A program made the translations under genes and the position numbers. This document shows, in pieces, positions 19,292 through 38,565 of a stretch of DNA of 40,011 nucleotides. Position 1 is the first letter of the stretch; each line of letters opens with the position of its first letter. This DNA comes from Flavobacteriaceae bacterium. GTDB lineage: Bacteria; Bacteroidota; Bacteroidia; Flavobacteriales; Flavobacteriaceae. The notes beneath the pieces were generated by a model that worked only from the letters and a program-made list of their open reading frames with translations, made no database searches and was not told where the DNA came from. The DNA lies in assembly GCA_014239275.1 (NCBI GenBank), contig JAAZZF010000044.1:1-40011 (forward strand), written 5' to 3'.

Positions 19292-20416
19292 TTAATAATT
19301 ATTGAGCTTTGCTAACCTATCTAAATGATAATTAGAATCACCCAATATTCTATCAGCAACTCTCGTTTTTTTTAAGAAAAAACCAATATCAACATCATCA
19401 GTTACTCCAATTCCACCATGCATTTGAACAGCTTCATTAGTAATAAGCTTAGAAACTAAACCTAATTTAGCCTTTGCTAAACTTGCAAATTTTGGCAATT
19501 CACTATCATTAGAATCTATAGCTTGAAGAGCTCTTAAAACAATTGATTTACACAATTCGATTTCCCCAAACATTAAAGCTGATCGATGTTGTAAAGCTTG
19601 AAAAGAACCAATTTTTACTCCAAATTGTTCTCTTTCTTTAATATATTTCATCGTTATCTCAAAAGCTTCTTGAACATTACCTAACATTTCAGCGGCAAGC
19701 CCAACTCTAGCTATATCTAATGTCTTATTTAAAATAATACTTCCATCATTATCAGTTGATAGAAAATTCATTTTATCTATTTTAACATTTTCAAATGATA
19801 TATCAGAATATATCTTTGAATCCATATGAACCTTATTATTTAAATTAATTCCATCAGATTTTCTATCTATCAAAACCAAAGCTATGTTTTTTTCATCTTC
19901 ATGTTTTGCAGAAACAATTAAATAATCAGATATTGAACCGTCAATTACAAATTTCTTTTTTCCATTTAAAATAAAATGATCTTCATTTTTTGAAACTAAA
20001 GAATTAATCAATTCTGGATTATGATGTCTCCCCTCTTCATGAGCTAGAGCACATAGTTTTGATCCATTCATTATTTCTTGAAATAACTTGTTTTTCAAAA
20101 CTTCATTTTTTGAAAGAGAAATTAATGAAGTAGACATTAGTACAGTTGAAATAATTGGTGATACAGTAAGTTTTCTACCTATTTCTTCAAGAACTTGACC
20201 AAGTCCAACAAAACCAAAATTTAACCCATTATACTTTTCTGGTATGGTTAGAGATGTCCAACCCATTTCAACCATTTCAGTCCATAATTCAACTTTAAAT
20301 TGATTATAATTATCATCTCTCAATTCCCTCATAAGAGTTAAAGGAGATTTTAAATCTAAAAATTCTTTTGTAGATGATTTGAGCATTTGTTGCTCCTCAT
20401 TTATTACTAGTGCCAT
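19292..20416 (-). CDS. Acyl-CoA dehydrogenase, probable non-catalytic partner subunit
   Basis: Acyl-CoA dehydrogenase fold protein of 374 residues. ALVINEEQQMLKSSTKEFL opens the N-terminal helical domain, and YIKEREQFGVKIGSFQALQHR and AVQMHGGIGVTDD mark the C-terminal domain. Where the catalytic Glu of IYEGT-type enzymes is expected, this protein has VADRILGDSNYHLDRLA and no such Glu. That is the pattern of the partner chain in heteromeric acyl-CoA dehydrogenases such as ChsE1/ChsE2 of steroid side-chain degradation. The gene 5 bases upstream encodes an acyl-CoA dehydrogenase that keeps the Glu, so the two probably form an alpha2beta2 enzyme. Last gene of the operon. Confidence 0.85.
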   Translation of the reverse strand: MALVINEEQQMLKSSTKEFLDLKSPLTLMRELRDDNYNQFKVELWTEMVEMGWTSLTIPEKYNGLNFGFVGLGQVLEEIGRKLTVSPIISTVLMSTSLISLSKNEVLKNKLFQEIMNGSKLCALAHEEGRHHNPELINSLVSKNEDHFILNGKKKFVIDGSISDYLIVSAKHEDEKNIALVLIDRKSDGINLNNKVHMDSKIYSDISFENVKIDKMNFLSTDNDGSIILNKTLDIARVGLAAEMLGNVQEAFEITMKYIKEREQFGVKIGSFQALQHRSALMFGEIELCKSIVLRALQAIDSNDSELPKFASLAKAKLGLVSKLITNEAVQMHGGIGVTDDVDIGFFLKKTRVADRILGDSNYHLDRLAKLNNY

Positions 20417-20421
20417 GTTTT

Positions 20422-21615
20422 TTATTTTGATGGTAAACCTAAAACTCTTTTTGCTATGATATTTAATTGAATCTCATGTGTCCCCCCCTCAATTGAATAA
20501 CCTTTAGAACGACAAAAAAGCCTTGCCTCTCTCCCATTATTAGATTCTTCACTAGTCCATTCTGTTGAATTAAAACCATTAACTTCAAGTCTTAATTCTT
20601 CTTTTTGAATACCAAGTTCAGTTCCATAGTATTTAAAAAAAGATGAAACCGCTCCTGGATTATTCCCAGCTTTATGTTCATCCATAGCTCTTTGAATTGT
20701 TAATTCAAATATTTTTTCATTCATTTCTAATTCAGAAATCTTATTTCTAATACTTATATCAGATAATGATCCGTTATTTTTTCCTAAAACCTCCTTTGCT
20801 ATTTCACTTAATGGTTTTTTCTTATCAGTTTCCCCAATTCCTCCAATCATTTGACGCTCATGAGTAAGTAAATATTTAGCAATTGTCCAACCATCATTTA
20901 AAGTTCCTACTAAATTTTTCTTTGGAACTTTAACAGCATCAAAAAATGTTTCAGTAAATGGAGATTTTCCACTTATAAGTTTTATTGGTCTTGTGCTAAC
21001 ACCCTTGGAAGCCATATCAATTAATAAAAAACTAACTCCAGTATGTTTTGAACTAGTATCGGTTCTAACTAGGCAAAATATCCAATCTCCTTTATCTCCA
21101 AAAGATGTCCATACTTTGGAACCCGTAACTAAAAAATGATCTCCTTTATCTTCAGCTTTAGTTTGCAAATTTGCTAAATCACTACCAGCATTTGGCTCAC
21201 TATAGCCTTGCACCCATCTTATTTCACCTTTACAAATTTGATTTAAATAATGTATTTTTTGTTCTTCAGAAGCAAACTTTAAAAGTGCTGGACCTAACAT
21301 AGAAATACCAAAGTTAATGTGTGGTTTTCTACAACCTAGTCTAGCCATCTCTTGATTTAATATATTATTTTGTTTTGGAGTAAGACCTCCTCCTCCATAT
21401 TTTGTTTCCCAATATGGAACAATCCACTTTTTTTCTAGCATTCTTTCAAACCATATTTTTTGATCTTCAGAAAAATAATTACCATTTCTACCTCCCCAAT
21501 ACAACTGTTTTACATCAGTCAGAGGCTCTCTCATAGAATTTGGACAATTATCTTCTAACCATTTTCTGGTTTCCATTCTAAAACTAGTTAAATCTACTTT
21601 TGTTTTTGTCTCCAT
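20422..21615 (-). CDS. Acyl-CoA dehydrogenase, catalytic subunit
   Basis: FAD-dependent acyl-CoA dehydrogenase of 397 residues that introduces an alpha-beta double bond into an acyl-CoA. QGYSEPNAGSDLANLQT and VWTSFGDKGDWIF are the flavin and substrate motifs. GYSIEGGTHEIQLNIIAKRV carries the expected catalytic base Glu376. It belongs to the branch often found in steroid and other bulky-substrate clusters, typically working with a partner chain. Its partner lies 5 bases downstream. Upstream in the same operon are enoyl-CoA hydratase, MaoC and SDR genes, completing a beta-oxidation round. Confidence 0.88.
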   Translation of the reverse strand: METKTKVDLTSFRMETRKWLEDNCPNSMREPLTDVKQLYWGGRNGNYFSEDQKIWFERMLEKKWIVPYWETKYGGGGLTPKQNNILNQEMARLGCRKPHINFGISMLGPALLKFASEEQKIHYLNQICKGEIRWVQGYSEPNAGSDLANLQTKAEDKGDHFLVTGSKVWTSFGDKGDWIFCLVRTDTSSKHTGVSFLLIDMASKGVSTRPIKLISGKSPFTETFFDAVKVPKKNLVGTLNDGWTIAKYLLTHERQMIGGIGETDKKKPLSEIAKEVLGKNNGSLSDISIRNKISELEMNEKIFELTIQRAMDEHKAGNNPGAVSSFFKYYGTELGIQKEELRLEVNGFNSTEWTSEESNNGREARLFCRSKGYSIEGGTHEIQLNIIAKRVLGLPSK

Positions 21616-21639
21616 TATCTTTTTAATCTTATTATTTAA

Positions 21640-22422
21640 TTATTTACCTAAAAAATTTGCCGGTCTTTTTTCTATAAAAGCAGTCACCCCCTCCTTCAAA
21701 TCATAGCTATTAAATGCTGAAACCTGTTTTTGTGCTTCAAAAGCTATGGTATCATTTAAATTATTATCCATAGAATACATCATGTCTGCTTTTGCAATTG
21801 CAATTGCAAGAGTCGGTCTAACAGAAAGTTCATGAGCCCATTTTTTAGCATCATTTAAAATATCTTCCTTTTCTACAATTCTATTTGTTAAACCTAATTT
21901 AGAACACTCTTCTCCAAATACTTTTTTACCACTTATAGCAATTTCAAAGGCTTTACTATAGCCTACTTGTCTTGCTAATAACCAACTTGCTCCACCATCA
22001 GGTCCAAGCCCTATATTAACAAAAGCATAAAGCAAAGCACTTTCTTTACTCATAACTCTTAAATCACAAGCTAATGCAAAAGCAGCCCCAACTCCCGCAG
22101 CTGTTCCATTTATAGCTCCAATTATTGGTTTGTTCATTGAGAAAAAACGCTTCATTAAAGGCTGATATTGTTCAATTATGTAATCTCTTCTTTGTTCAGC
22201 AGTAACTTCATCTCCAAATACTGACATATCTGCTCCAGCGCAAAAGCCTTTACCATTTCCTGTCAATACTATCGCTCTTACATTTTTATCTTTTTCAGCA
22301 ATTGATAAACATTGATTTATACCATCAACCAAATCTTGATTTACAGCATTATATCTCTCAGGTCTATTTAAAGTAATTATTGCAATATTTTTTTTTATTT
22401 CTATTAAAACTGATTTACCCAT
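21640..22422 (-). CDS. Enoyl-CoA hydratase/isomerase family protein (PaaG-like)
   Basis: Crotonase-fold protein of 260 residues. LNRPERYNAVNQDL and GKGFCAGADMSV form the CoA-binding and oxyanion region, and GTAAGVGAAFALACDLRV the second oxyanion helix. The acidic residue in VNIGLGPDGGASWLL is Asp, as in PaaG-like isomerases, rather than the Glu of classical hydratases, so double-bond isomerisation is at least as likely as hydration. A MaoC-type hydratase is encoded 9 bases upstream, which would take the hydration role in this operon. Confidence 0.87.
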   Translation of the reverse strand: MGKSVLIEIKKNIAIITLNRPERYNAVNQDLVDGINQCLSIAEKDKNVRAIVLTGNGKGFCAGADMSVFGDEVTAEQRRDYIIEQYQPLMKRFFSMNKPIIGAINGTAAGVGAAFALACDLRVMSKESALLYAFVNIGLGPDGGASWLLARQVGYSKAFEIAISGKKVFGEECSKLGLTNRIVEKEDILNDAKKWAHELSVRPTLAIAIAKADMMYSMDNNLNDTIAFEAQKQVSAFNSYDLKEGVTAFIEKRPANFLGK

Positions 22423-22431
22423 AATACATAT

Positions 22432-22908
22432 TTATTCGTATCCTATTGCTAAAGTTTCAGCAACACATACTGGTTTTTCTTGTCCCTTAAGTTCAACAGT
22501 AATACCTAATTTATATTTTGCACCTCCAGGTTTTATTTCAAATTCTAATAATGAAACTCTTCCTCTTACAAGGCCACCAGAAGGGGTAGCACTCATAAAC
22601 CTTACTTTATCAACACCATAATTAACCCCCATTTTAACACTTCCAATAGTCACAGTATCATAGGAAAATCTAGATGCTAATGATAAGATCATAAATCCAT
22701 GAGCAATAGTAGTTTTGTAAGGAGATTCTTTAGCACACTTTTCTGCATCAAGATGAATCCATTGTTCATCTTCTGTAATTTTAGCAAATACACTTATCTT
22801 ATCTTGGGTTATCTCTATCCAATCACTTATTCCTAATTCCTTACCTACACATTTGCCCATTTCATCTAAATTTTTAAAATGAGTTTTATAAGCCTCTTTT
22901 TTTTCCAT
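22432..22908 (-). CDS. MaoC/NodN-like R-specific enoyl-CoA hydratase
   Basis: Single hot-dog-fold protein of 158 residues. The hydratase-2 motif appears as DEQWIHLDAEKCAKESPYKT followed by TIAHGFMILSL, with Asp and His expected to activate water. It should hydrate a 2-enoyl-CoA to the R-3-hydroxyacyl-CoA. The length and NVGKELGxSDW-like N-terminus match the NodN-like group. With the SDR gene upstream it forms a MaoC plus SDR route that differs from the FadB/FadJ multifunctional route and is common in clusters for bulky acyl-CoAs. Confidence 0.87.
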   Translation of the reverse strand: MEKKEAYKTHFKNLDEMGKCVGKELGISDWIEITQDKISVFAKITEDEQWIHLDAEKCAKESPYKTTIAHGFMILSLASRFSYDTVTIGSVKMGVNYGVDKVRFMSATPSGGLVRGRVSLLEFEIKPGGAKYKLGITVELKGQEKPVCVAETLAIGYE

Positions 22909-22933
22909 TTTTTTTAAATTAAGTTAATTAATA

Positions 22934-23674
22934 TTACATTGGCATAGCACCTCCATTCGCATGAAGAGTTATTCCACTGACAAAACCTGATTCTTTAGAT
23001 GCTAAAAACAAATAAGCATGACCCATGTCTTCAGGTGTACCTATTCTTCCCACAGGGATCATTTTAATTGCCCCTTTAATTATTTCTTCAGGCATACTAT
23101 CCGACATTACTGATTTTACAAAACCTGGTGCAACTGCATTTGCAGTAATTCCGTGCTTTCCGACTTCTTTACATAATGCCCTGGTGAAACCAGAAATTCC
23201 TGCCTTCGTAGCACAATAATTAGTTTGTCCAAAAGCACCAGCAGTTCCATTAATAGAAGATGCTGATACGATTCTTCCATATCCATTTGCTTTCATGTAT
23301 GGAACTACAGTTCGAGTTACCACATATAAAGATTTGAGATTAACGTTAATTACTGAATCCCAATCGTCTTCAGACATCTTTAAAAAAGATTTATCCCTGA
23401 TTATTCCAGCATTATTAATTAGAATTTCTATTTTACCATGATCTTTAATTATTTTTTCTACTGCTTCATTTACACACTCTTGATCAGTGACATCGACTTT
23501 TTGATAAAAAATATTTCCACCATTTTTTGTTATTTCATTAACTGTATCAGTTCCATCTAAAACATCCCATAAAGCTACTGTAGCTCCTTCTCTACAAAAA
23601 ACTTCACATATTCCTTTACCTATTCCACGAGCTCCGCCTGTTACAATAGCAACTTGACCTTCTAATCTTTTCAT
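22934..23674 (-). CDS. SDR family 3-hydroxyacyl-CoA dehydrogenase / 3-oxoacyl reductase (FabG/PhaB-like)
   Basis: Classical SDR of 246 residues. Cofactor motif GGARGIGKG (about 13-21), NNAGI, catalytic Ser in SASSINGTAG and Tyr/Lys in NYCATKAG. NAVAPGFVKS and the C-terminal SGITLHANGGAMPM match FabG/PhaB-like reductases. In this operon it would oxidise the 3-hydroxyacyl-CoA produced by the MaoC hydratase. A housekeeping FabG is less likely because no fatty acid synthesis gene is nearby. It lies 87 bases downstream of the thiolase gene with an inverted repeat between them. Confidence 0.87.
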   Translation of the reverse strand: MKRLEGQVAIVTGGARGIGKGICEVFCREGATVALWDVLDGTDTVNEITKNGGNIFYQKVDVTDQECVNEAVEKIIKDHGKIEILINNAGIIRDKSFLKMSEDDWDSVINVNLKSLYVVTRTVVPYMKANGYGRIVSASSINGTAGAFGQTNYCATKAGISGFTRALCKEVGKHGITANAVAPGFVKSVMSDSMPEEIIKGAIKMIPVGRIGTPEDMGHAYLFLASKESGFVSGITLHANGGAMPM

Positions 23675-23704
23675 AATTTATTTTATTAATTAAACTTTTA
23701 AAAT

Positions 23705-23724
23705 ATTAGTATTTATATACTAAT
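23705..23724. promoter_or_regulatory. Inverted repeat between thiolase and SDR genes
   Basis: ATTAGTAT and ATACTAAT form 8-base perfect arms around TTAT in the 87-base gap between the minus-strand thiolase and SDR genes. No strong T-run follows on the minus strand. It may be an operator for an internal promoter or an mRNA processing hairpin. A terminator is less likely. Confidence 0.35.
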
Positions 23725-23761
23725 TTAAAAAAAAAGAATTACTTTTTTTAAACATTTCAAA

Positions 23762-24943
23762 TTAAATAACTTCAAATAAACCAGCTGCTCCCATTCCACC
23801 ACCAACACACATGGTAGAAACTACATATTTAGCTCCTCGTCTTTTACCTTCAATAAGTGCATGACCAACCATTCTAGATCCACTCATGCCATATGGATGA
23901 CCCACAGAAATAGAACCACCATTAACATTTAAAAGTTCGTCTGGAATACCTAAAATATCTCTACAATAGATCACTTGAACTGCAAAAGCTTCATTAAGTT
24001 CCCATAATCCTATGTCACTCATTTTAAGTCCATTCTGCTTTAATAGCTTCGGGACTGCATAAATTGGTCCAATACCCATCTCGTCTGGCTCACATCCAGC
24101 GACAGCAATTCCTCTGTATATTCCAAGAGGAGTTACATTATGTTTTGCTGCCACATTTGATTCCATTAAAACACAAGCAGATGCACCATCGGATAACTGA
24201 CTGGCATTTCCCGCAGTAATTGAACCTCCTTCAACAACAGGCTTGAGTGATCTTAATCCTTCAATTGTTGTTGATGGTCTATTACATTCATCTTTTGAAA
24301 TTGTCTTTTCAATAAATGAAATTTCTTTAGTTTCCTTATCCATAACTCCCATAGTTGTAGTAACCGAAATAATTTCATCATCAAATTTTCCTTCATCTTG
24401 ACCTTTAGCAGTTCTAAGTTGACTTTGAAGCGCATATTGATCTTGAGATTCTCTAGAAATATTGTACCTGTTGGCAACAACCTCAGCAGTTTGAAGCATT
24501 GGCATATAAATATGTTTGTGTTTTGCGATTAAATTTTTGTCTACATACCTATCTAAATTCATTTTTTCAGTTTGAACTAAACTAATTGAATCTAGGCCAC
24601 CACCAACAACAACATCCATTCCGTCACTAATGATTTGTTTTGCTGCAGTTGCAATTGCCATCATTCCAGAGGAACATTGTCTATCTAAACTCATACCACT
24701 TACTGTAACTGGAAGACCGGCTGCTAAAGCTGCATTTCTGGCCACATTAGCATGTGTTGTACCTTGTTGAAGAGCAGCTCCCATTATTACATCATCTACT
24801 TTGTCAGGATCAACTTCTGACCTTTTTACTGCTTCCTCTATTGCCCAACCAGCCATAGTTGGAGCAGTTGTATTATTGAATGTCCCTCTATAAGATTTCG
24901 TTAAGGGAGTTCTAGCTGTTGAAACTATTAATGCATCTCTCAA
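23762..24943 (-). CDS. Acetyl-CoA acyltransferase (thiolase, FadA-type)
   Basis: Thiolase of 393 residues that cleaves a 3-oxoacyl-CoA with CoA, releasing acetyl-CoA. Catalytic Cys in [12 protein letters not shown] (about residue 90), NEAF, His in [14 protein letters not shown] and Cys in [11 protein letters not shown] are all present. The GHPYGMSG form is frequent in thiolases of specialised beta-oxidation clusters. The start codon is TTG at 24943: the family N-terminus [16 protein letters not shown] begins exactly there and no ATG is available. It starts 2 bases after the stop of the enone reductase gene, so translation is probably coupled. Confidence 0.9.
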
Positions 24944-24945
24944 AA

Positions 24946-25941
24946 TTATAGTTTTAAAATTAATTTACCTTTTTTATTCCCATTAAATAACTTTTTAAAA
25001 ACTTCATAAAAGTTCTCTATGCCTTCATAAACATCTTCTTTTGACTTTAAAGTACCGTCAAGAATCCATTCGGTCATTTCTTTAGTAGCCAGTGGATATT
25101 TTTTTGCAAAATCTAAAACAACCATCCCTTTCATGGTTGCTCTGTTAACAAGTAAAGACAAATAATTATTTGGCCCTTTAGCTGACATTTCATTGTATTG
25201 TGAAATAGCACCACATATTACAATTCTTGCTCCCATTCTTAAAAAAACTAGAGCCGCATCTAAAATTTCACCACCAACATTATCAAAATACACATCTATT
25301 CCATCTTGACATTCTCTTTTTATTCCTCTTTTTACACTTTCATTTTTATAATCAATACACCCATCAAAACCTAATTCGTTGATTACATAATCACATTTCT
25401 CCTTTCCACCAGCAATTCCAACAACTTTACATCCTTTAATCTTTGCAATTTGACCAACAATACTTCCAACAGCACCAGCTGCTGCTGATACAAGCACAGT
25501 ATCACCTTCTTTTATATTACCAACTTCAAGAATACCAAAATATGCGGTCATTCCAGGCATACCCAACGTTCCAATGTAAGTTGGTAAAGGTATCTTACTA
25601 CTAGGGACTTTAAAATATCCCTTACCATCTGAAATTGAGTATTGTTGAACTCCACCCCAACCGGAAAGAATGTCTCCTTTATTAAAATTTGTGTTTTTTG
25701 ATTCTATAACTTCCCCAATTGTTCCTGCCCTCATAACTTCTCCTATTTGAACTGGAGGAATATATGATCTTGTTTCATTTAACCATCCTCTCATAGCTGG
25801 ATCAAGTGATACGTATAAATTTTTTAGAAGAACTTCACCATCATTAATTTCTCCTATATCTTCCAAATCATGAGTCCAAGTATTTTCCGATGGAAAACCA
25901 GATGGACGAGCTGCTAATTTTACAATTTTATTTTTTAACAT
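24946..25941 (-). CDS. NADP-dependent oxidoreductase (CurA/prostaglandin reductase-like MDR)
   Basis: Zinc-free medium-chain dehydrogenase of 331 residues. [15 protein letters not shown] and [12 protein letters not shown] are hallmarks of the CurA/PTGR group, which reduces alpha-beta double bonds of enones and enals with NADPH. The cofactor loop is [15 protein letters not shown] and Y197-region [15 protein letters not shown] follows. As the first gene of the lower minus-strand unit, directly before the thiolase, it may saturate an unsaturated intermediate of the degraded compound. The exact substrate is unknown. Confidence 0.88.
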
Positions 25942-25990
25942 ATATTATGTGTTTTGAGTACATTGTAGTTTATAAAGTAGGTAAAAATAT

Positions 25991-26025
25991 AAAAAAATAT
26001 TATGCGCGCATAATATTTTTTTTTT
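25991..26025 (-). terminator. Perfect 32-base palindromic terminator
   Basis: AAAAAAATATTATGCG (25991-26006) and its exact complement (26007-26022) abut with no spacer, centred on GCGC, and T-runs flank both sides (to 26025 on the plus strand). It lies just beyond the 3' end of the enoyl-CoA hydratase gene at 26035 and 50 bases before the MDR start, so it separates two minus-strand transcription units. It could act in either direction. Confidence 0.8.
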
Positions 26026-26034
26026 AAAAATAAA

Positions 26035-26847
26035 TTATTTCCAATTTGGTTTTCTTTTTTCTTTAAATGCAGAAATGCCTTCTTTGGCATCATCAGAATT
26101 TAGTACTAATTCTAACATGTCGGCCAGATACTTATGATTAGATTCACTAGAGCTAATCCTGTCAATCGCCTCTAAGCCATATTTTATTGCTTTTGGCGAA
26201 TTATTTGTAACCTCATCTAACCATTTTGAAACAACAGATCCAATTTCAACCTGATTAGTGATTTGAGAAACTAACCCCCAATGATAAGCAGTTTTAACAT
26301 CTAAATTATAACCTCTAATACACCAATCAACTACATTTCTAACAGAGATTACTTTTGACAAAGATTCCATTACTTGCATTGGAAATATTCCTCTTTTTAC
26401 TTCTGGAAGACCTAGTTTAAGTCCATCTATTGAAACAATATAATTACAACCGGCTATCAATAAAAAACCTCCCGCATAAACATCTCCCTCTAACTGACAA
26501 ATTTTAGGCTTATAAAGTTTATTAAATAATTCTCCAATCAAAATTTTTGAATTGGCTTGTGGAACAGTTGATTTATTTTCTTCTACTTCCCCACTAATAG
26601 CTTTTAGATCTAATCCTGAACAAAAAACATCTCCATTTGACTTTAACAATAAAGCCCTGACATTGTCACAGTAGGATGCATATTGGAAAGCAAATGCTAT
26701 TTCATTTATCATTTGAGGATGTAAAGCATTTTTCTTATTTGGACGATTTAATGTGATACTAAAGACGTGATCAGTTTCGTCTAACTCTATAAAATCAAAT
26801 TTATATGATTTTATATTTTTTATATCGTTTTCATTAAAGTAGTTCAT
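26035..26847 (-). CDS. Enoyl-CoA hydratase/isomerase family protein
   Basis: Crotonase-fold protein of 270 residues from ATG 26847. A GTG at 26859, overlapping the upstream stop by 4 bases, is an alternative start and would add four residues. SITLNRPNKKNALHPQM and NGDVFCSGLDLKAI form the first oxyanion region, and EGDVYAGGFLLIAGCN the second. GLPEVKRGIFPMQVM carries the Glu of hydratase-type members. Immediately downstream of the carboxyltransferase gene, the pair resembles LiuB-LiuC and AtuC-AtuE, where the hydratase acts on the carboxylated 3-methylglutaconyl- or isohexenylglutaconyl-CoA. That role is inferred. Confidence 0.83.
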   Translation of the reverse strand: MNYFNENDIKNIKSYKFDFIELDETDHVFSITLNRPNKKNALHPQMINEIAFAFQYASYCDNVRALLLKSNGDVFCSGLDLKAISGEVEENKSTVPQANSKILIGELFNKLYKPKICQLEGDVYAGGFLLIAGCNYIVSIDGLKLGLPEVKRGIFPMQVMESLSKVISVRNVVDWCIRGYNLDVKTAYHWGLVSQITNQVEIGSVVSKWLDEVTNNSPKAIKYGLEAIDRISSSESNHKYLADMLELVLNSDDAKEGISAFKEKRKPNWK

Positions 26848-26855
26848 AGCATATA

Positions 26856-28454: not shown

Positions 28455-28500
28455 TAAATAAACATTTTATTTTAATTTATTATTAAATTGATATTGAATA

Positions 28501-28508
28501 CAAAATTA
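28501..28508 (-). promoter_or_regulatory. Candidate -7 promoter box for the carboxyltransferase unit
   Basis: On the minus strand 28508-28501 reads TAATTTTG, an exact TAnnTTTG match 46 bases before the start at 28454. A TTTG at 28527-28524 could be the -33 element, though the 15-base spacing is short. The remaining 28455-28678 gap shows no supported gene. Confidence 0.35.
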
Positions 28509-28678
28509 ATTAAAAATTAATGACAAATATACTGTCTTTTACATGCTATCATTATTAGAGCTATTTTTATAGGAATTGAAATGACTATATAAAATGAGAA
28601 AAAAATATTTTATATTGTAGTGGCGGGGAAAATGGAATAGGAATCGCTGAATTAAAAAAACTAATTAAAATTAAAATT

Positions 28679-30343
28679 ATGATAGATGAATTATTTGACT
28701 TTCCTTTTTATAAATGGGAAGAAAAACTGAAAAACAAACCATTCTTAAAACAACCATTTGGGGACTTATGGGAAAATTACACCTGGGAACAAGTTGGTAA
28801 TATGGCTAGAAAGCTTTCAACAGGTTTAAAATCAATGGGTCTTCCAGAAAAAAGTCATATTGGATTAGTTTCTAAAAACTGTAGAGAATGGATTATTGCT
28901 GATTTAGCTATTTCTATGTCAGGACACATTTCCGTTCCATTTTTTCCCACTTTAAAATCATACGAAATTGAAAAACTACTAGATTTTGGTGATGTTAGTG
29001 CTTTGTTTGTTGGAAAATTAGAAAATTGGGAGGAAATGAAACAAGGGGTAAGAGATGATATGCCAATTATCGCATTTCCTCATTATAAAGATCACTCAAA
29101 AATTTCTGAAGGCAAACAATGGTATGATTTTATTAATGAATTTGATGCTCAAACTGAAGATTTTAAACCAAAATTAAAAGACATTTGGACTATAATTTTT
29201 ACTTCTGGTACAACGGGTGATCCAAAAGGAGTAGTTCTTACTTATGAAACACTTTATAATACTAAGAGAATTACTGAAGATGGCAATCCTTTAAAAGTTG
29301 ATTTTTCAGGAAATAATGATTTCATTTCATATATGCCATTAAACCATATCTTTGAAAGAGTAGTCATTGAACATTCAGCTTTTAGATTTGGAGGAACAAT
29401 TTCTTTTGTTGAATCCCTGGAAACTTTTGGTCAGAATTTGAATGATGTTAAACCAACAGCCTTTCAAGGAGTTCCTAGGATATATTCTAAATTTCAAGAA
29501 AAGATTTTAATGAAAATGTCTCAAAAAAAGCTTTCTACATTATTAAAAATCCCTATCATTTCATTTATTCTAAAAAAGAAATTAAGAGGTGCTTTAGGAA
29601 TGTCTAGAGTAAGATCACTAGTTACTGGAGCAGCTGCTATGCCTCTTGAACTACTAGATTGGTATAAGAGCATAGGTATATACATCACAAATGGATATGG
29701 TATGACAGAAAACTGTGCTACCTGTACAAATCTAAATCCATATCAACCTTTAGGAAGAGGATCGGTTGGAAAAGCTACATCTGGTGTTGATTTGAAAATT
29801 AGTGAGCAAGGTGAAATTTTAATGAAGGGGCCTTTTACCTTAACATGTTATTACAAGAATGAAGAAATTACCAACCAAACCCTGAGAGATGGATGGCTTT
29901 ACACTGGAGATAAAGGATATATTGATGATGATGGATTTTTATACATTACCGGTAGAGTAAAAGATATATTTAAAACATCTAAAGGAAAATATATAGAACC
30001 TGGTGTTTTAGAAACATATTTTGGAAATATTAATGAATTTTCACAACTATGTGTAGTGGGATTAGCATGTGACCAACCATTGCTTATGGCTGTTCCTTCT
30101 GAATTAGCAATTAAAAACAAGGAATCTGTTTCAATCAAATTAGCTAAAATTCTAGAAGAGGTAAATGAAAAATTAGATAACTATAAAAAAATCTCTAAAA
30201 TCATATTAGTCAAAGAGGATTGGGTTCCTGAAAATGGAATGACAACACCAACCTTAAAAATTAAAAGAGCAAAAATTGATGAAAAATTTTCTGACAAGTA
30301 TGGAGAATGGGAAAAAAGTGAAAATACAGTTATTTGGGAATAA
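28679..30343 (+). CDS. Long-chain fatty-acid--CoA ligase (AMP-forming)
   Basis: ANL-superfamily enzyme of 554 residues that activates a carboxylic acid to its acyl-CoA via an acyl-adenylate. IIFTSGTTGDPKGVVLTYE is the P-loop, NGYGMTENCATC the A5 motif, and WLYTGDKGYIDDDGFLYITG with RVKDIFKTSKGKYIEP the A7/A8 region. TLKIKRAKI near the end gives the C-terminal lysines. The overall layout is that of long-chain (ACSL/FadD15-like) ligases. It likely supplies the CoA ester degraded by the facing minus-strand operons. The next gene begins 5 bases after its stop. Confidence 0.9.
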   Translation: MIDELFDFPFYKWEEKLKNKPFLKQPFGDLWENYTWEQVGNMARKLSTGLKSMGLPEKSHIGLVSKNCREWIIADLAISMSGHISVPFFPTLKSYEIEKLLDFGDVSALFVGKLENWEEMKQGVRDDMPIIAFPHYKDHSKISEGKQWYDFINEFDAQTEDFKPKLKDIWTIIFTSGTTGDPKGVVLTYETLYNTKRITEDGNPLKVDFSGNNDFISYMPLNHIFERVVIEHSAFRFGGTISFVESLETFGQNLNDVKPTAFQGVPRIYSKFQEKILMKMSQKKLSTLLKIPIISFILKKKLRGALGMSRVRSLVTGAAAMPLELLDWYKSIGIYITNGYGMTENCATCTNLNPYQPLGRGSVGKATSGVDLKISEQGEILMKGPFTLTCYYKNEEITNQTLRDGWLYTGDKGYIDDDGFLYITGRVKDIFKTSKGKYIEPGVLETYFGNINEFSQLCVVGLACDQPLLMAVPSELAIKNKESVSIKLAKILEEVNEKLDNYKKISKIILVKEDWVPENGMTTPTLKIKRAKIDEKFSDKYGEWEKSENTVIWE

Positions 30344-30348
30344 CTTTG

Positions 30349-31371
30349 ATGCTATATATTCTTACTTTCATTATCGGATTAATTACTTTTAAAGTATATC
30401 ATTCTTTACTTAATGATAATGTACTTGAAAAGTATATCGAGAAATTAATTTCTAACGCGACATTTAAAGAAATTCCTGAACTTATTAAAGGGAAAACAGG
30501 TTTTGCAAATAATTTAGGAGTAAAAATTTTCTATGAAGACTTATGTCTATGTGAAAAACCTAAATCAACAGTAATTTTAATTAATGGTTCCTCTGAATCA
30601 TTAATACAATGGCCAGATAAAATGGTCCGAAATATTTTAAAAAATGATTTTAGAGTAATAAGGTTTGATAATAGAGGACTAGGAATGTCTGACTGGATTA
30701 AAGACTGGAGCAATTCTAATTCATACAGCTTAAATGATATGGCATTAGATACCTTAGCAGTAGCTAATCATCTAAAGTTAGATAAGTTTCATTTAATTGG
30801 GTATTCTATGGGTGGAATGATATCTCAAATTTTAGCTATTAATTATCCTGAAAAAATACTTTCTCTTACTACATTAATGTCAAGTGCTCATGTATTTGAT
30901 CCTGAAGCTAAAAAAGCAGATAGCAAACGACTTGGTCAATTAAGAAAAATGATCTATGGATACAGAAATAAAAAAAGAGAGCTTAAAAAAGCACTTAAGT
31001 TTCATTTTAAATTATCACATCTATGGGTAGGAAGCGAAAACTATGTGCCTAATCAAGAAAAAGAGCTAGAAAAAGTGCTCTATGAAATCAAAAAAAGAAA
31101 TGGATATAACAAAAAAGCTTTTTATCAACACAAAAAAGCAATTAAAAATTCTGGTTCTAGATATAGTAAGTTAAAAAAAATAAAAACTCCTACTTTAATC
31201 ATTCACGGATCTGATGACCTTTTAATAAAAGCAAGTCATTCGAAAAAAATGGCTTCTTTAATACACGGATGTAAGCTTTATATTATCAAAGGAATGGGGC
31301 ATGATTTCAATAAAAATTTTAAAAACCGAATAAATAGTATTATTTTGCCACATATATTAAGAAATTCTTAA
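30349..31371 (+). CDS. Alpha/beta hydrolase with N-terminal membrane helix
   Basis: Protein of 340 residues from ATG 30349, preferred to a TTG at 30334 inside the upstream gene. An N-terminal hydrophobic segment (MLYILTFIIGLITFKVYHSL) suggests membrane attachment. The hydrolase core has VILINGSSESLIQW (oxyanion), FDNRGLGMSDW, nucleophile elbow GYSMGGM, acid Asp in IHGSDDLL and base His in GMGHDF. Between about residues 205 and 280 there is a very Lys-rich cap. Co-transcribed with the acyl-CoA ligase, it may release the acid that the ligase activates, for example from an ester. That is inferred from order alone. Confidence 0.85.
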   Translation: MLYILTFIIGLITFKVYHSLLNDNVLEKYIEKLISNATFKEIPELIKGKTGFANNLGVKIFYEDLCLCEKPKSTVILINGSSESLIQWPDKMVRNILKNDFRVIRFDNRGLGMSDWIKDWSNSNSYSLNDMALDTLAVANHLKLDKFHLIGYSMGGMISQILAINYPEKILSLTTLMSSAHVFDPEAKKADSKRLGQLRKMIYGYRNKKRELKKALKFHFKLSHLWVGSENYVPNQEKELEKVLYEIKKRNGYNKKAFYQHKKAIKNSGSRYSKLKKIKTPTLIIHGSDDLLIKASHSKKMASLIHGCKLYIIKGMGHDFNKNFKNRINSIILPHILRNS

Positions 31372-31443
31372 ATTTACTATTTAAAACCTAAAAATAGTTT
31401 AATACAGGAATAAAATATATACAATTTAACCAAAACAATAATT

Positions 31444-34215
31444 ATGAAATTTAAATTTTATTTATCTAGTCTAATTTTATTATTAACCACTTTTATGATG
31501 GTTAATGCCCAAAACAACACAGTAAACGGTAAGATTACTGATGGTGTTGATGGACTATCTGGAGTTAATGTTATTATTCAGGGTACAAATACTGGAGTAT
31601 CAACTGATGATAATGGAGTTTTTATTTTATCTTCAGATAAAGATCTCCCTTGGACGTTAGAAATAAGTTCAATAGGTTTTCAAGGACAAAATCTTGTGGT
31701 TAACTCCACATCTCAAGTGATTTCTATATCACTAAGTTCTGGTGAAGAACTTGATGAAGTTGTAATTTCTGGATCTAGAAAACCAGAAAAATCTATCAAT
31801 GCTGCTTCATCTATTACAGTTATTGGAACCAAAGAAATAGAAAATAAATCAGTTTTTAATTCTTTAAGTCTAGTTGATGATGTTGCAGGTCTTCAAGTTG
31901 ATAGACAAGGAGCTAATAAACTAAATATTACATTAAGAGATGATGTAGATTTACTTACTACATCAACCCTAGTAATGCAAGATTATAGAGCATTGAATTT
32001 AACTGGTGTAGATGTTTTTGATAGTAACGCTTCTAATCTCAGTAGTATTGACCTAGAAAGAGTTGAGGTTGTACTTGGGCCTGCGTCTGCATTATATGGT
32101 CCTGGCGTTGGAGCTGGTGTTGTACATTTTCTAAGTAAAGATCCCTTCAAGTATCCTGGTACTACTTTACAAATTCAAGGAGGTGCAATTTCCAATGGTG
32201 GATCTATGTTATCTAAGGGTAATTTTAATATGTATAACATGAATTTCAGACACGCTACTAGCAATGAAGCTCAAACTCTTGGATATAAATTAAATTTAAA
32301 ATATTCTGAAAACAAAAATTTTGATTTTCCTGAAAATACTTTAGCACAATATCCTGATAATGTAGTTGATGCCACTTCAGGAGAAGTTGTTAGAACAATT
32401 GGTAACAAGAATGTAGAAAGATCCTCATCTAGAGGAGTTGATGCTTCTATATACTACAGACCTTCAAACAATTTTTCTTTAACAACAGTAGCTGGTATAA
32501 GTGAAGTTTCTGACAATATTTTTCTTCAAGCAACTGGAGAGAACCGTGCTACACAAAGACAAGCCTTTATACAAACTCGTCTTCAATCAAATAATTTGTT
32601 TGTTCAGTGGAACTATATGGGCATACAACCACATAAAAGTGATAATAATAGATCTTTTATATATAGAACCGGTAAAACAGCCGGTGTTGCCAGTACGCAA
32701 TCTCAATTACAAGTTCAATATGAACTAGCTTTTGATAAGTTAAACACAGATATGACTGTAGGTGTTGAACATAAATTTGCAACTTTTGAAACTAACGGGC
32801 AAGTTTATGGTAGATATGAAGACGTAGATGATTACAGAGTTTATGGAGCTTATTTTTCTACTAAAACTGATCTAAGTGATAAGTTAAATTTACAATTAGC
32901 TGGTAGGTATGATAAATTCCCAGCAATTGGTGAAAATTCATTTTCTCCTAGAGTTGCTTTAGTTTACAAGCCATCCCAAAGACATAGTTTGAGATTAACA
33001 TTTAACAAAGCTTTTGTTCCAGATCCAGCACTTTACTTATTTGTTGATACACAAGTACAAAATTTGCCGGGAGGATATGGAAATGTATGGATTTTAGGTA
33101 ATAGAGATGCTCAAACTTTTAATAATGTTAGAACCAGTTGGTTATTTGGTGGTGGAGCTGTTCCTTCTAATCCCGGAATTGGAATGTCCCACGCAACGTT
33201 ATTTGGTGTACTAGCTGGGGCTGTAGCTCCACTTTTACCAGGAACTCTATTACAAGGCTTTGTTCCATTTTTAACCAGCACGACCACTCTAGCTGCGGTA
33301 GCTGGAACTGGTGGTTTTACAACTGGTATGTTATTTGATATTAGTGGAAATCCTTTTGGTCCTCTTACAAATAGTGATAAATCTACTTTAGGAGAAGAAA
33401 CTCATTATGAACTTGGATACAAAGGAATGCTTTCTGATAATTTTTCTTTTAATTTTAATGTATACAACTCTATAAAAGAAAATTTTGTTGCACAAATGCA
33501 GGTAAGTCCACTTGTAGCATTGCCAACTTTAGCAACAGATTTTGCTGGAACTGTTGGACCAATGTTTTATAACTACGCACTTAATACAATATTCCCTACA
33601 ATGGGATTACCTGCTGCGTATGGGCCTACTATAGCAGCTCAATTAGGAACTGCAATGACAAATACAATGGCAGGTGCTGCTATTCAAGCTGGATTAACCG
33701 GTGCTGTTGGAGTAGTAGAAAGTGATCAAGCACCTGGTGGAGAACCTAGTATTATGTTTGGGTGGAAAAATTTTGGTAGAGTAAGTTACTGGGGCTTTGA
33801 AAGTGGAGTGAAGTGGAGAGCAAACGACAACTTAACTTTATGGGGAAACTATTCAAGTGTAAGTCAAACAACTTTTAGACAAGATGCTTTAGGATCCTTA
33901 CTTGAAACAGGAAGTTATAGCTTAAACCATGCTAAAGAGAGAGTAAAAGCTGGATTTGTATATGATAATGGAAGAAAATGGAATTTAGGAATGAGTTATA
34001 AATATGATGGAGGTTATGAGGCTAGTAAGGGCCAATTTTACTCTGGACTAGTTGACAAAAGAAATGTGATAGATGCTAATATAGGTTTTGATATTAACAC
34101 TAAAACTTTAATAGGGTTAAATATTTATAACTTAACCGATACAAAGTATAGTATCTTCCCTAACATGCCACTATTAGGTAGACAAATGATTCTAACTTTA
34201 AAACATGATTTTTAA
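31444..34215 (+). CDS. TonB-dependent receptor with unusually hydrophobic inserts
   Basis: Outer-membrane receptor of 923 residues: signal peptide (about 1-22, ending VNAQ), CarboxypepD_reg-like domain (about 25-95, GKITDGVDGLSGVNVIIQGT), plug domain (LDEVVISGSRKPEKS, then IDLERVEVVLGPASALYGPG), and a 22-strand-type barrel ending ...ILTLKHDF. Energised by TonB-ExbBD, it would import a ligand into the periplasm. Two inserts, residues of about 562-640 and 685-760, are rich in Ala, Gly, Leu, Thr and Pro and contain almost no charged residues, unlike normal extracellular loops. No SusD-like gene follows. Together with its neighbours this suggests uptake of a lipophilic compound. Confidence 0.92.
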   Translation: MKFKFYLSSLILLLTTFMMVNAQNNTVNGKITDGVDGLSGVNVIIQGTNTGVSTDDNGVFILSSDKDLPWTLEISSIGFQGQNLVVNSTSQVISISLSSGEELDEVVISGSRKPEKSINAASSITVIGTKEIENKSVFNSLSLVDDVAGLQVDRQGANKLNITLRDDVDLLTTSTLVMQDYRALNLTGVDVFDSNASNLSSIDLERVEVVLGPASALYGPGVGAGVVHFLSKDPFKYPGTTLQIQGGAISNGGSMLSKGNFNMYNMNFRHATSNEAQTLGYKLNLKYSENKNFDFPENTLAQYPDNVVDATSGEVVRTIGNKNVERSSSRGVDASIYYRPSNNFSLTTVAGISEVSDNIFLQATGENRATQRQAFIQTRLQSNNLFVQWNYMGIQPHKSDNNRSFIYRTGKTAGVASTQSQLQVQYELAFDKLNTDMTVGVEHKFATFETNGQVYGRYEDVDDYRVYGAYFSTKTDLSDKLNLQLAGRYDKFPAIGENSFSPRVALVYKPSQRHSLRLTFNKAFVPDPALYLFVDTQVQNLPGGYGNVWILGNRDAQTFNNVRTSWLFGGGAVPSNPGIGMSHATLFGVLAGAVAPLLPGTLLQGFVPFLTSTTTLAAVAGTGGFTTGMLFDISGNPFGPLTNSDKSTLGEETHYELGYKGMLSDNFSFNFNVYNSIKENFVAQMQVSPLVALPTLATDFAGTVGPMFYNYALNTIFPTMGLPAAYGPTIAAQLGTAMTNTMAGAAIQAGLTGAVGVVESDQAPGGEPSIMFGWKNFGRVSYWGFESGVKWRANDNLTLWGNYSSVSQTTFRQDALGSLLETGSYSLNHAKERVKAGFVYDNGRKWNLGMSYKYDGGYEASKGQFYSGLVDKRNVIDANIGFDINTKTLIGLNIYNLTDTKYSIFPNMPLLGRQMILTLKHDF

Positions 34216-34236
34216 AATAAGATCATAATATTTTTT

Positions 34237-34268
34237 AAAAAAAGAGCAAGTAATATTGCTCTTTTTTT
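34237..34268 (+). terminator. Intrinsic terminator after the TonB receptor gene
   Basis: AAAAAAAGAGCAA (34237-34249) pairs perfectly with TTGCTCTTTTTTT (34256-34268) around the loop GTAATA. The stem ends in a seven-T run. It lies 21 bases after the receptor stop codon. Confidence 0.88.
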
Positions 34269-34341
34269 ATTTTAAAAATCAATATTTAAATTTTATATTA
34301 AAAAAATAATTAGGATATTTATACTACTATAATTTTTCAAA

Positions 34342-35319
34342 ATGAATAAGCCAAATTTTATAAATGAACTAAACATACCTGCAGTAGCTGCTCCAATGTT
34401 TTTAATCTCTGGACCTGAGATTGTAATAGAATGTTGTAAAAATGGTATTGTTGGAACTTTTCCTGCATTAAACCAAAGAACAAGTGAAGGTTTTGAAGAG
34501 TGGGTAATTGAAATAAAAACAGAATTAGATAACTATGAAAAGGAAACGGGGATAAAACCTGCTCCATTTGGCGTTAATCTAATTGTTCATCAAACAAATC
34601 CAAGGGTTAAAAAAGATCTTTCTATTTGTATAAAACATAAAGTACCTATAATAATAACTTCTTTAGGTGCTGTTAGTCAGCTTGTTAATGCAGTTCATTC
34701 ATATGGAGGACTAGTTTTTCATGATGTAATTAAAAAAAGACATGCTGAAAAAGCTGCAGAAGCTGGAGTAGATGGTTTGATTTTAGTTGCTGCTGGAGCT
34801 GGAGGGCATGGAGGAACATTAAATCCAATGCCATTTATTTCTGAAGTAAGAAGTTTTTTTGATAAGACTATTTTACTTTCAGGATGTATTAGTTCAGGAA
34901 GAGATATTGCTTCAGCAATTCAAATGGGCGCAGACTTAGCTTATCTAGGTACCCGGTTTATAAATACTTTGGAGAGTAAAGCGGATGAAAAATATAAGGA
35001 AATGATAATAAACTCAAAAGCTGGTGATATTGTATATACAGCTGCTGTTTCAGGAGTTAATGCAAATTTTCTTCGTCAGAGCTTAGAATCCATGGGAATT
35101 ACGGAAGAAATGTGGGGCAATACTAAAAAAATTAATTTTGGTGATGAGTTAGATGCAGCTCAGGCAGAAGCAAAAGCTTGGAAAACAATTTGGTCTGCTG
35201 GTCAAGGTGTTTCATCTATAGAGGATTGTCCATCAACAAAAGATCTAATAGATAGACTTAAAAAAGAATTTATTGATTCAATAAAAAATCAAGGTAAGGT
35301 TTTAGAAAAATTTTCATAA
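34342..35319 (+). CDS. Nitronate monooxygenase-like FMN enzyme (possibly IpdC-like reductase)
   Basis: FMN TIM-barrel protein of 325 residues. VAAPMFLISGPEIVIECCKNG at the N-terminus, LILVAAGAGGHGGTLNPMP as the phosphate-binding loop with His, LSGCISSGRDIASAIQMGAD and YLGTRFINTLES are conserved in the nitronate monooxygenase / 2-nitropropane dioxygenase family. Members embedded in lipid and steroid clusters, such as IpdC of ring C/D steroid degradation, act as reductases on CoA intermediates, not on nitronates. The surrounding acyl-CoA genes make that alternative attractive, but it cannot be settled by eye. Its 3' end overlaps the convergent acetoacetyl-CoA ligase gene by 31 bases. Confidence 0.85.
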   Translation: MNKPNFINELNIPAVAAPMFLISGPEIVIECCKNGIVGTFPALNQRTSEGFEEWVIEIKTELDNYEKETGIKPAPFGVNLIVHQTNPRVKKDLSICIKHKVPIIITSLGAVSQLVNAVHSYGGLVFHDVIKKRHAEKAAEAGVDGLILVAAGAGGHGGTLNPMPFISEVRSFFDKTILLSGCISSGRDIASAIQMGADLAYLGTRFINTLESKADEKYKEMIINSKAGDIVYTAAVSGVNANFLRQSLESMGITEEMWGNTKKINFGDELDAAQAEAKAWKTIWSAGQGVSSIEDCPSTKDLIDRLKKEFIDSIKNQGKVLEKFS

Positions 35320-37163
35320 AATTCTACAAACCAATCTAAAGATTTAGGGTTTCTTAAAGAATCTTTACTGACAACATCATTTTGATTTTTACCCATCAAT
35401 ATCTTCTTTATAGGTACTTCAACTTTTTTTCCACTTATAGTATAAGGAATATCAGGAGTTTGAAAAAATAAATCCGGAACATGCCTTGGAGAACATTTTA
35501 ATCTAATGACAGATTTTAGTTCATCATAATTAATTTTTGATGAAGATTTTACAAAAAGAATTAACTTATTCTTATTACTATCATCTACATGAATTATTAA
35601 ACTGTCTTCAACATAGTATAGGTCTTTAATAGCACTATATATCTCTGAAGTGCCTATCCTCACTCCGAATCTATTTAAAGTTGAATCAGAGCGCCCATGA
35701 ACAATAATTCCACCATTTAATGTCTCTGTAACCCAATCTCCGTGGTTCCAAATTTTATTAAATTTTGAAAAATAACTTTTTTTATATTTTTCATCATTAA
35801 TATCATTCCAAAAAAATACAGGCATTGAAATTAATGGCTTAGTCAAAACAAGTTCACCCATTTTATTCTTAATTTCTTTTGCATTATCATTCCAAACTTC
35901 AACAGATGCGCCTAACATTTTACATTGAATTTCTCCAGGAATAACATCCAAATCTAAATTTCCTCCAATAAATGCTGTACAAACATCAGTTCCTCCACTT
36001 AAAGAAACAATATGAGCATCAGGAAAAAGTTTATTTAATCCTATGTTGGTTTCTTTAAATAATGGTGAACCTGTAGAGCCTATAGTTATTAAATTAGACA
36101 AATCATGAGAAACTAACTCTTTTGGAAGGTTAGATAATAGATTTTGAAAAAAGACTGCTCCATGTCCAAAATGGTTAATTTTTGCTTTTTTAGCAAATCT
36201 CCAAAGTACTCCGTTGTCAGGGTATATAGGTGATCCATTGTAAATACATAAAGTAGATCCTATTAAAAGGCTGCTCAAAGAATAATTCCACATCATCCAT
36301 CCAGTAGTTGAATACCAAAAGTATGTATCAGCATTAGAAACATTTTGATGAATTGACAAGGCTTTATAATGTTCTAATATCATCCCTCCTGTTCTATGTG
36401 TAATTGCCTTAGGTTTTCCAGTAGTTCCTGAAGAAAATAAAATCCAAATTGGATGATCAAAATCAACTGATATAAAATTTAAATTTATCTTTTTTAAATT
36501 ATTAGTAAATGTTGATTTAGTATTTAAGTCTAAAATACCAGAAATTGATTTTATTGAACTTTTAAGTTTTTTAACTTTTGAATCTAAAGAAAAAATTTTC
36601 CCATTATACATATATTCTGAGTGATAAAACAAGAATTTTGGTTGAATCTGGTTAAATCTATCGTAAACAGAATCATAACCAAAATCCGGTGAACAAGATG
36701 ACCAAATTGCTCCAAGTGAATTCACTGCTAAAAAAGCTGCTACAACTTCAGGAGTATTGGAACAATATCCTACTACCCTATCACCTAATTTTACATTGTT
36801 TTTAATTAAAATTTCTTGGAATTCTAAAGTCTTCATCTTCAATGATTCCCAAGAAATTTCAAGATACTTTCCGTTTTCATCTTGATATTTAATTGCTGGA
36901 GTTTTTAATTTGTGATTTCTAAAAATATTCTTAGAATAACTAATCTTTGAATTCACAAACCAAAGAGTCTTAATAAAATTTTTATTGAATTTATAAATTG
37001 TTGTTGGAGGTTTATCAAATTCTATTTTAAAAAATTTGACGATTGACCCCCAAAAATCAGATATTTCATTAATACTCCAATTATGTAAATCATTATAGGA
37101 TTTAAAGTTTAATTTATTATTTGATTTTAGAAATTCTTTATACTTTGATAATATCGATTTCAA
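35289..37163 (-). CDS. Acetoacetate--CoA ligase
   Basis: ANL-superfamily ligase of 624 residues that converts acetoacetate to acetoacetyl-CoA. SYNDLHNWSINEISDFW is the family N-terminal region, LFSSGTTGKPKAITHRTGG the P-loop, WYSTTGWMMWN the AACS/ACS motif, GRSDSTLNRFGVRIGTSEIY the A8 region and ISGKKVEVPIKK the A10 lysine region. The start is TTG at 37163: an in-frame TAG lies two codons upstream and no Met occurs before residue 109. The protein thus lacks roughly the first 15-20 residues common in the family. It would return a ketone-body product of degradation to central metabolism. Confidence 0.9.
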   Translation of the reverse strand: MKSILSKYKEFLKSNNKLNFKSYNDLHNWSINEISDFWGSIVKFFKIEFDKPPTTIYKFNKNFIKTLWFVNSKISYSKNIFRNHKLKTPAIKYQDENGKYLEISWESLKMKTLEFQEILIKNNVKLGDRVVGYCSNTPEVVAAFLAVNSLGAIWSSCSPDFGYDSVYDRFNQIQPKFLFYHSEYMYNGKIFSLDSKVKKLKSSIKSISGILDLNTKSTFTNNLKKINLNFISVDFDHPIWILFSSGTTGKPKAITHRTGGMILEHYKALSIHQNVSNADTYFWYSTTGWMMWNYSLSSLLIGSTLCIYNGSPIYPDNGVLWRFAKKAKINHFGHGAVFFQNLLSNLPKELVSHDLSNLITIGSTGSPLFKETNIGLNKLFPDAHIVSLSGGTDVCTAFIGGNLDLDVIPGEIQCKMLGASVEVWNDNAKEIKNKMGELVLTKPLISMPVFFWNDINDEKYKKSYFSKFNKIWNHGDWVTETLNGGIIVHGRSDSTLNRFGVRIGTSEIYSAIKDLYYVEDSLIIHVDDSNKNKLILFVKSSSKINYDELKSVIRLKCSPRHVPDLFFQTPDIPYTISGKKVEVPIKKILMGKNQNDVVSKDSLRNPKSLDWFVEFYENFSKTLP

Positions 37164-38540: not shown

Positions 38541-38565
38541 AAAAATCATAATCAATCAAACTAAT

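Follow-up and report, generated by a model that had tools for sequence, protein, structure and literature searches.

The window analysed here is a stretch of 40,011 nucleotides, positions 1 to 40,011 (forward strand) of contig JAAZZF010000044.1 (C44) from the Flavobacteriaceae assembly GCA_014239275.1 (G000; 1.64 Mb, 132 contigs, completeness 86%). A sequence-only reading had proposed that positions 19292-37163 form a dedicated uptake and beta-oxidation island for a hydrophobic branched or cyclic acid, and all fourteen genes that it named there were found as open frames with the stated domains. These genes, and the features that follow them to the end of the window, are listed below.

19292-20416, minus strand: ACADs, small subunit of a putative heteromeric acyl-CoA dehydrogenase (ACAD)
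20422-21615, minus strand: ACADl, large subunit of the same putative ACAD
21640-22422, minus strand: ECH1, crotonase (enoyl-CoA hydratase/isomerase), by domain matches
22432-22908, minus strand: MaoC-like hydratase (PF01575); best solved relative 2c2i (Rv0130), 122 bits
22934-23674, minus strand: FabG-like SDR, by domain matches
23762-24943, minus strand: thiolase, above the TIGR01930 cut-off (PRK07108, 595.4 versus 615)
24946-25941, minus strand: CurA/PTGR-type double-bond reductase, under the NCBIfam cut-off for CurA curcumin reductase (375.1 versus 440 bits); 430 bits to 4b7c
26035-26859, minus strand: ECH2, crotonase; a glutaconyl-CoA-type hydratase role is suggested solely by its position beside CTX
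26856-28454, minus strand: CTX, carboxyltransferase (CT) beta subunit of the MCC/GCC group, 532 aa
28679-30343, plus strand: FACL, long-chain acyl-CoA ligase, by domain matches
30334-31371, plus strand: ABH, alpha/beta hydrolase with a hydrophobic N-terminus, by domain matches and sequence
31444-34215, plus strand: TonB-dependent receptor, by domain matches
34342-35319, plus strand: NMO/FabK-like flavoprotein (NMO), with a 73% identical copy in the Saprospiraceae cluster L035
35289-37163, minus strand: acetoacetyl-CoA ligase (AACS), above the TIGR01217 cut-off (608.4 versus 520.9 bits)
37659-38540, plus strand: FAH, fatty-acid-hydroxylase superfamily protein, opening the next same-strand run
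38566-39798, plus strand: Z, next in that run, 410 aa with a lipoprotein-like N-terminus and without a match to any Pfam family
39871-40011, plus strand: terminal 141 bases of C44, repeated exactly at an end of contig C26

Whole-genome comparisons covered 22 genomes of the genus, most of them incomplete, and 38 other relatives (60 in all). An ACADl-based scan of named genomes gave 121 related places, of which the best 80 were retained as loci; by our sorting 17 of them belong to the window type (L001-L015, L041 and L044), and 15 from other Flavobacteriaceae form a second type (L016-L029 and L031). The order CTX-ECH2-CurA-thiolase-SDR-MaoC-ECH1-ACADl-ACADs (19292-28454) is complete in 14 of the 17 window-type loci, counting L006, where CTX is truncated at the contig edge. 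The run is incomplete in L011, which begins inside the thiolase, and in L014 and L015, which have no thiolase or ECH1; one extra gene lies within it in L044 and two in L009. ACADl itself is present in 19 of the 22 genus genomes and in none of the 38 other relatives at a threshold of 1e-60. Since gene order is kept, the proposal of a dedicated, conserved uptake-plus-beta-oxidation island is supported. The second-type loci couple the same ACAD pair to SDRs and MaoC, and they carry an APH-type kinase in 14/15, a further dehydrogenase (ACADx) in 9/15 and an AbfD-type dehydratase in 5/15 cases, the kinase being assigned by Pfam in L019 and by clustering and motif in the other loci. A strictosidine-synthase/SGL-like propeller, possibly a lactonase, also occurs in second-type operons (L024:5769-6836; cluster c31, 7 loci). 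The Saprospiraceae locus L035 combines a ligase, the NMO copy, ACADx, MaoC, a crotonase, a histidine phosphatase and the ACAD pair. In the proteobacterial loci (L032, L037, L042, L043 and L045-L080) the ACAD pair is about 51-62% alike and the neighbours differ in those inspected; these loci were dropped as uninformative on the substrate.

The boundaries drawn by the sequence-only reading proved too narrow, as the genes at 37659-39798 open another run, which extends past the end of the window into contigs C26 and C38. The window's final 141 bases recur identically at one end of C26, whose opposite end in turn matches the start of C38 over 141 identical bases; adjacent contigs in an assembly graph would be expected to overlap in this way. 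C26 encodes an MBL-fold protein, DUF1214 and DUF1254 proteins, a putative haloalkane dehalogenase, a DJ-1-like protein, a 158-aa protein, sulfatase 1, two proteins without a Pfam family, a second NMO-like protein (NMO2) and sulfatase 2, and C38 encodes an SDR, ACADx, an SDR and an APH kinase. The island genes of the relative G007 share 88-99% identity with those of the window. There, AACS and a DUF4345 gene precede sixteen plus-strand genes that are never more than 26 bases apart: FAH, Z, MBL-fold, haloalkane dehalogenase, DJ-1-like, 158-aa, sulfatase 1 (with a membrane segment), two without a Pfam family, NMO2, sulfatase 2, SDR, ACADx, SDR, APH kinase and histidine phosphatase. The kinase and CTX share a contig, 11-32 kb apart, in 10 of the 19 genus genomes that bear the kinase, as do the dehalogenase and CTX, 12-20 kb apart, in 9 of the 13 that bear the dehalogenase. 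The two members of the sulfatase run that match no Pfam family above cut-off (L194:4267-5067 and L194:2715-3548) are kept between G000 and G007.

Residues of the ACAD pair were counted in the 77 of 80 loci that yielded a clustered open reading frame for each subunit. ACADl has Glu in both HER and IEGG in 77/77, and ACADs has no Glu at either of the two places examined, the first being occupied by Ala (50), Gly (19), Ser (4), Thr (3) or Ile (1) and the second by Gly (75) or a gap (2). The choice of Glu as presumed catalytic base and the matching of columns between the subunits are our judgement from other ACADs; the asymmetry so defined fits a heteromer. The likeness to heteromeric ACADs put forward by the sequence-only reading holds, as the top solved relatives of ACADl, 4x28 (142 bits) and Tcur3483 (140 bits), are both members of such pairs. 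ACADs is closest to CarC among solved structures, with Tcur3481 lower at 89 bits. The island thus resembles 4x28 and Tcur3481/Tcur3483 in its adjoining large and small genes and in the asymmetry between subunits, whereas its scores are moderate and KshA_C has no match in the genus genomes. PimC/PimD pimeloyl-CoA dehydrogenase is the top NCBIfam match of both subunits; a PimCD or dicarboxylic-acid assignment was discarded, with scores far under the cut-offs (276.8 versus 623.85 and 183.7 versus 652.7 bits).

A different kind of ACAD chemistry is suggested by ACADx. In the part of PMC12440821 available, R626, H634, R637, an HCMR motif and a catalytic Asp are described as common to ACAD10/11 and LvaC and as not found in conventional ACADs, and the accessible part of PMC11342911 describes the processing of 4-hydroxyacyl-CoA by kinase action followed by phosphate elimination. 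The catalytic Asp and R-x7-H-x2-R with the HCMR motif are present in all 17 ACADx copies examined (7 from the genus and 10 from elsewhere, our own included), and these diagnostic residues are absent from ACADl and ACADs. A partner APH-type kinase is in view for 16 of the 17 copies, the exception being L035, where none was seen within the stretch available; in G000 it lies two genes on from ACADx, and both proteins retain their family motifs. The kinase occurs in 19/22 genus genomes, G000 (on C38) included. In G012, G015 and G018 the ACADx-APH pair and NMO are one to three genes apart, and both the dehalogenase and sulfatase 1 are lacking. By residues and partner gene, ACADx and the kinase are predicted to be an ACAD10/11-LvaC-type 4-hydroxyacyl-CoA pair. 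With the lva operon of Pseudomonas putida and mammalian ACAD10/ACAD11 the island shares the APH-type kinase and an ACAD with the catalytic Asp, the R/H/R residues and HCMR, and it also has the CoA ligase and SDRs that count in this comparison; unlike them, it joins these to a heteromeric ACAD set, a TonB receptor, sulfatases and a dehalogenase, and the likeness is by published residues rather than by direct comparison with LvaA/LvaC. An AbfD-type 4-hydroxybutyryl-CoA dehydratase was found in only 2/22 genus genomes, G006 and G008, both of which also have the kinase, and not in G000. It adjoins ACADl and matches a solved vinylacetyl-CoA isomerase with 769 bits (scored on the G008-type copy, L009), as if it were an alternative solution for 4-hydroxyacyl-CoA. 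AbfD-like dehydratases stand beside the ACAD pair in scattered lineages (L009:8486-9994, L161, L021, L022, L025, L027, L028 and L030).

The C26 protein is a putative haloalkane dehalogenase by cut-off and motifs. The G007 copy scores 279.6 bits against the NCBIfam NF002043 cut-off of 265, and our copy, 94% identical to it, retains the aligned motifs HGQPVW, QDWGS, FQAW and NHFIQED, whose residues we take to have active-site roles. The nine best solved matches of the G007 copy, among the best 60 of 124 matches, are named haloalkane dehalogenase. The protein aligns with DhlA-type enzymes over most of its length, and differs from them in an N-terminal extension of about 50 residues and in its setting among sulfatases and lipid genes. 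The PF00884 cut-off is passed by our sulfatase 2 and by the G007 copies of both sulfatases, and both of our sulfatases contain CxPxR, presumably the formylglycine sulfatase motif. The dehalogenase is present in 13/22 genus genomes (one partial) and sulfatase 1, at an identity of at least 66%, in 14/22 (three partial, one with stops).

The carboxyltransferase bears on the suggestion of the sequence-only reading that the island resembles leucine (Liu) or acyclic-terpene (Atu) pathways. The Atu pathway, with genes named AtuC, AtuE and AtuF, uses a GCC, and the island is similar to it in having a CT on the GCC side, an adjacent hydratase and, in G008, an adjacent alpha subunit. The part of PMC4673880 available gives MCC beta a three-residue insertion followed by Phe, where GCC has Gly in place of Phe. 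CTX of the window and 18 full-length genus copies have no insertion and a Tyr at this selectivity position (19/19), which is Ala in G008 and Gly in the Saprospiraceae copies L033 and L038. Ten other Flavobacteriales MCC-like proteins have both the insertion and the Phe; ordinary MCC (LiuB) identity of CTX was rejected on these residues. CTX is like GCC beta (AtuC) in having no insertion and unlike it in having Tyr for Gly, and it carries a GCC-like HNTTGF stretch. A tree groups it with PaGCC opposite the MCC side (100/98), though this tree is unrooted, contains long branches and includes one GCC sequence whose composition is odd. The Liu/Atu suggestion, and the Atu role within it, has mixed support, with the position in the tree in its favor and the Tyr and the alpha subunit, not found in G000, against it. 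The search of this 86% complete genome for an MCC/GCC alpha subunit (biotin carboxylase plus carrier) gave one Biotin_carb_C match, an AccC-sized frame of 453 aa; its CT matches are CTX, the only one of the MCC/GCC group, and two proteins of AccD and AccA size. A 658-aa alpha subunit was seen within the genus only in G008, in the order CTX-alpha-ECH2 (L009); G021 gave two partial matches that were left unassigned, and G005, G012 and G019 none at all. Because G026, G030 and G032, from other Flavobacteriaceae, likewise show one CT and one AccC-sized carboxylase, it is plausible that CTX uses shared AccB/AccC subunits. A second CT, about 30% identical and PCC-like in size and identity, occurs in 6/22 genus genomes, G000 not among them, and adjoins the APH kinase in five of the six (G004, G005, G006, G010 and G021). 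In G010 and G005 it directly follows the kinase and the histidine phosphatase (L180:2378-3931 and L184:1302-2852). An HMG-CoA-lyase-like protein is encoded elsewhere (177.5 bits versus a cut-off of 246).

From these observations of gene content, order, conservation, contig-end overlap and diagnostic residues we infer, tentatively and with slightly less than even confidence, that the island serves the uptake and breakdown of a hydrophobic acid or ester bearing hydroxyl and sulfate groups, and possibly a halogen. The TonB receptor would carry the substrate over the outer membrane, the anchored hydrolase would strip an ester and the two sulfatases would strip sulfate groups, and the dehalogenase would exchange a carbon-bound halogen for a hydroxyl. 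The alcohol could then be oxidised by the SDRs and the CoA ester made by the ligase, after which the ACAD pair, MaoC/crotonase, SDR and thiolase would shorten the chain. A hydroxyl reaching carbon 4 would hinder beta-oxidation; the APH kinase may phosphorylate this hydroxyl and the ACAD10/11-LvaC-type enzyme eliminate the phosphate, returning an enoyl-CoA to the cycle. CurA and NMO would reduce double bonds, and a methyl-branched or C5 remnant may be handled by CTX, ECH2, the HMG-CoA-lyase-like protein and acetoacetyl-CoA ligase. The joining of the modules would be explained by a sulfated and possibly halogenated lipid in which shortening brings a hydroxyl to carbon 4. This proposal draws on the order kept in 14/17 loci, the kinase in 19/22 genomes, the ACADx residues in 17/17 copies, the single run of G007, the dehalogenase and sulfatase motifs, and the kinase cluster (14/15) and ACADx (9/15) beside the same ACAD pair in second-type loci.

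Several observations weigh against it. The connection of C44, C26 and C38 is made by 141-base overlaps and synteny, other contigs not having been compared for the same overlap, and an opposite-strand frame of 216 aa interrupts the run inside C26 of G000. The dehalogenase and sulfatase 1 co-occur in only 12/22 genus genomes, and this part is absent from several members; 9 to 40 sulfatase candidates per genus genome were counted at first look, carrageenan sulfatases are the nearest solved relatives of sulfatase 2, and CTX points to a methyl-branched substrate. In the part of PMC5613140 available, a Zobellia protein with a haloalkane-dehalogenase domain adjoins a kappa-carrageenase and responds to carrageenan, which lowers the probability of the proposal and of the chlorosulfolipid version of it given below. 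The dehalogenase and sulfatase may serve the handling of sulfated polysaccharides or defence compounds; no glycoside hydrolase is found among the annotated G007 genes, which favors, but does not prove, a non-sugar substrate.

The hydroxyl, sulfate and halogen groups called for here occur together in a natural class of compounds, the chlorosulfolipids. A specific algal chlorosulfolipid route is the boldest candidate and is improbable; it would comprise uptake by the TonB receptor, de-esterification, loss of one or two sulfates, dehalogenation by hydrolysis, heteromeric beta-oxidation and the kinase/ACAD bypass. Judging by where danicalipin carries its groups, the bypass would come into play when a secondary hydroxyl on an even-numbered carbon comes to lie at carbon 4. 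According to the accessible part of PMC13413282, chlorosulfolipids occur in the seawater of coastal blooms; some of them carry two sulfates, and an acylated member is also mentioned. No bacterial route for their degradation was found in the literature searched, including the available parts of PMC2866472 and PMC5613140.

The proposed hydroxylated, sulfated substrate and its four rivals overlap in part, and their probabilities do not add up to one. Algal oxylipins or other hydroxy or oxo fatty acids without halogen, the sulfatase-dehalogenase part being a neighbour with its own task, are a possible but somewhat unlikely substrate class. The prevalence of the kinase (19/22, versus 2/22 for the AbfD-type dehydratase), the PTGR/CurA-type reductase, the other setting of the Zobellia dehalogenase (in the part of PMC5613140 available) and the six genomes that keep the kinase without the dehalogenase and a full-length sulfatase 1 (G003, G011, G012, G015, G017 and G018) would all be accommodated, whereas the single same-strand run of dehalogenase, sulfatases, ACADx and APH in G007 would not. 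An isoprenoid such as a phytol- or citronellol-like compound is unlikely. Here CTX, ECH2 and the lyase would remove a beta-methyl group as in Atu, and ACAD, MaoC, SDR and thiolase would shorten the chain to acetyl units and acetoacetate. This agrees with the missing MCC insertion, the HNTTGF stretch, the GCC side of the tree, the CTX-alpha-ECH2 order of L009/G008, the acetoacetyl-CoA ligase in the island, the lyase-like protein elsewhere and the absence of the second CT from G000 and its presence in only 6/22 genomes. It is opposed by the Tyr in place of Gly, by an alpha subunit seen only in G008, by the weaknesses of the tree, and by the second CT beside the kinase in 5/6 genomes, which argues against a propionyl-CoA-free route there; the sulfatases, dehalogenase and kinase/ACAD pair would also be left unexplained. 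A literature search on phytol breakdown found no gene-level paper among those listed.

That ordinary leucine/isovalerate and fatty-acid catabolism has been collected in one place is quite unlikely. CTX, ECH2, the HMG-CoA-lyase-like protein and acetoacetyl-CoA ligase correspond by type to the lower leucine route, and CTX is the sole CT of its group in the G000 assembly. However, CTX lacks the MCC features that ten other Flavobacteriales CTs possess, ACADl is limited to the genus among the 60 relatives at 1e-60, and a TonB receptor and hydrolase lie in the same island. Side-chain or ring catabolism of steroids (sterols or bile acids), one of the substrate classes named by the sequence-only reading, is not supported and is highly improbable. 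The closest solved relatives of ACADl (4x28) and MaoC (Rv0130), a 159-bit match of sulfatase 2 to steryl-sulfatases and, in the part of PMC5790920 available, KshA homologues in sponge metagenome-assembled genomes classified as Bacteroidetes or Actinobacteria would be in keeping with it. On the other side, KshA_C (PF19298) was found in 0/22 genus genomes, a negative that is weak because the 14 controls include no known steroid degrader, most of the genomes being incomplete as well; no IpdC-named model appeared among the NMO matches, the existence of such a model being unchecked; and the same part of PMC5790920 reports that hsaC was not found in Bacteroidetes.

Marine Flavobacteriaceae are known mainly for polysaccharides. 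If the proposed hydroxylated, sulfated substrate is correct, the island would point to bacteria as a sink for algal lipids that are oxidised, sulfated or chlorinated, and it offers a concrete, testable gene set. It would join a TonB receptor, sulfatases and a haloalkane dehalogenase with ACAD10/11-type 4-hydroxyacyl-CoA chemistry in one conserved island. Annotation of the island as steroid or plain leucine catabolism would be unsafe.

Around these genes, a GPH-type symporter lies between CTX and FACL in relatives (L001:1669-3081; 7 of 8 G stretches), and none is present at this place in the window (28455-28678), L008 or L155. Beside the island, 14918-19270 holds two saccharopine-dehydrogenase-domain genes and an aldehyde dehydrogenase above the L-piperidine-6-carboxylate dehydrogenase cut-off (803.7 versus 730), suggesting lysine-type catabolism; although conserved neighbours, they were treated as separate because the aldehyde dehydrogenase is absent from many relatives. 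A tRNA-Arg (acg) is located at 6847-6921.

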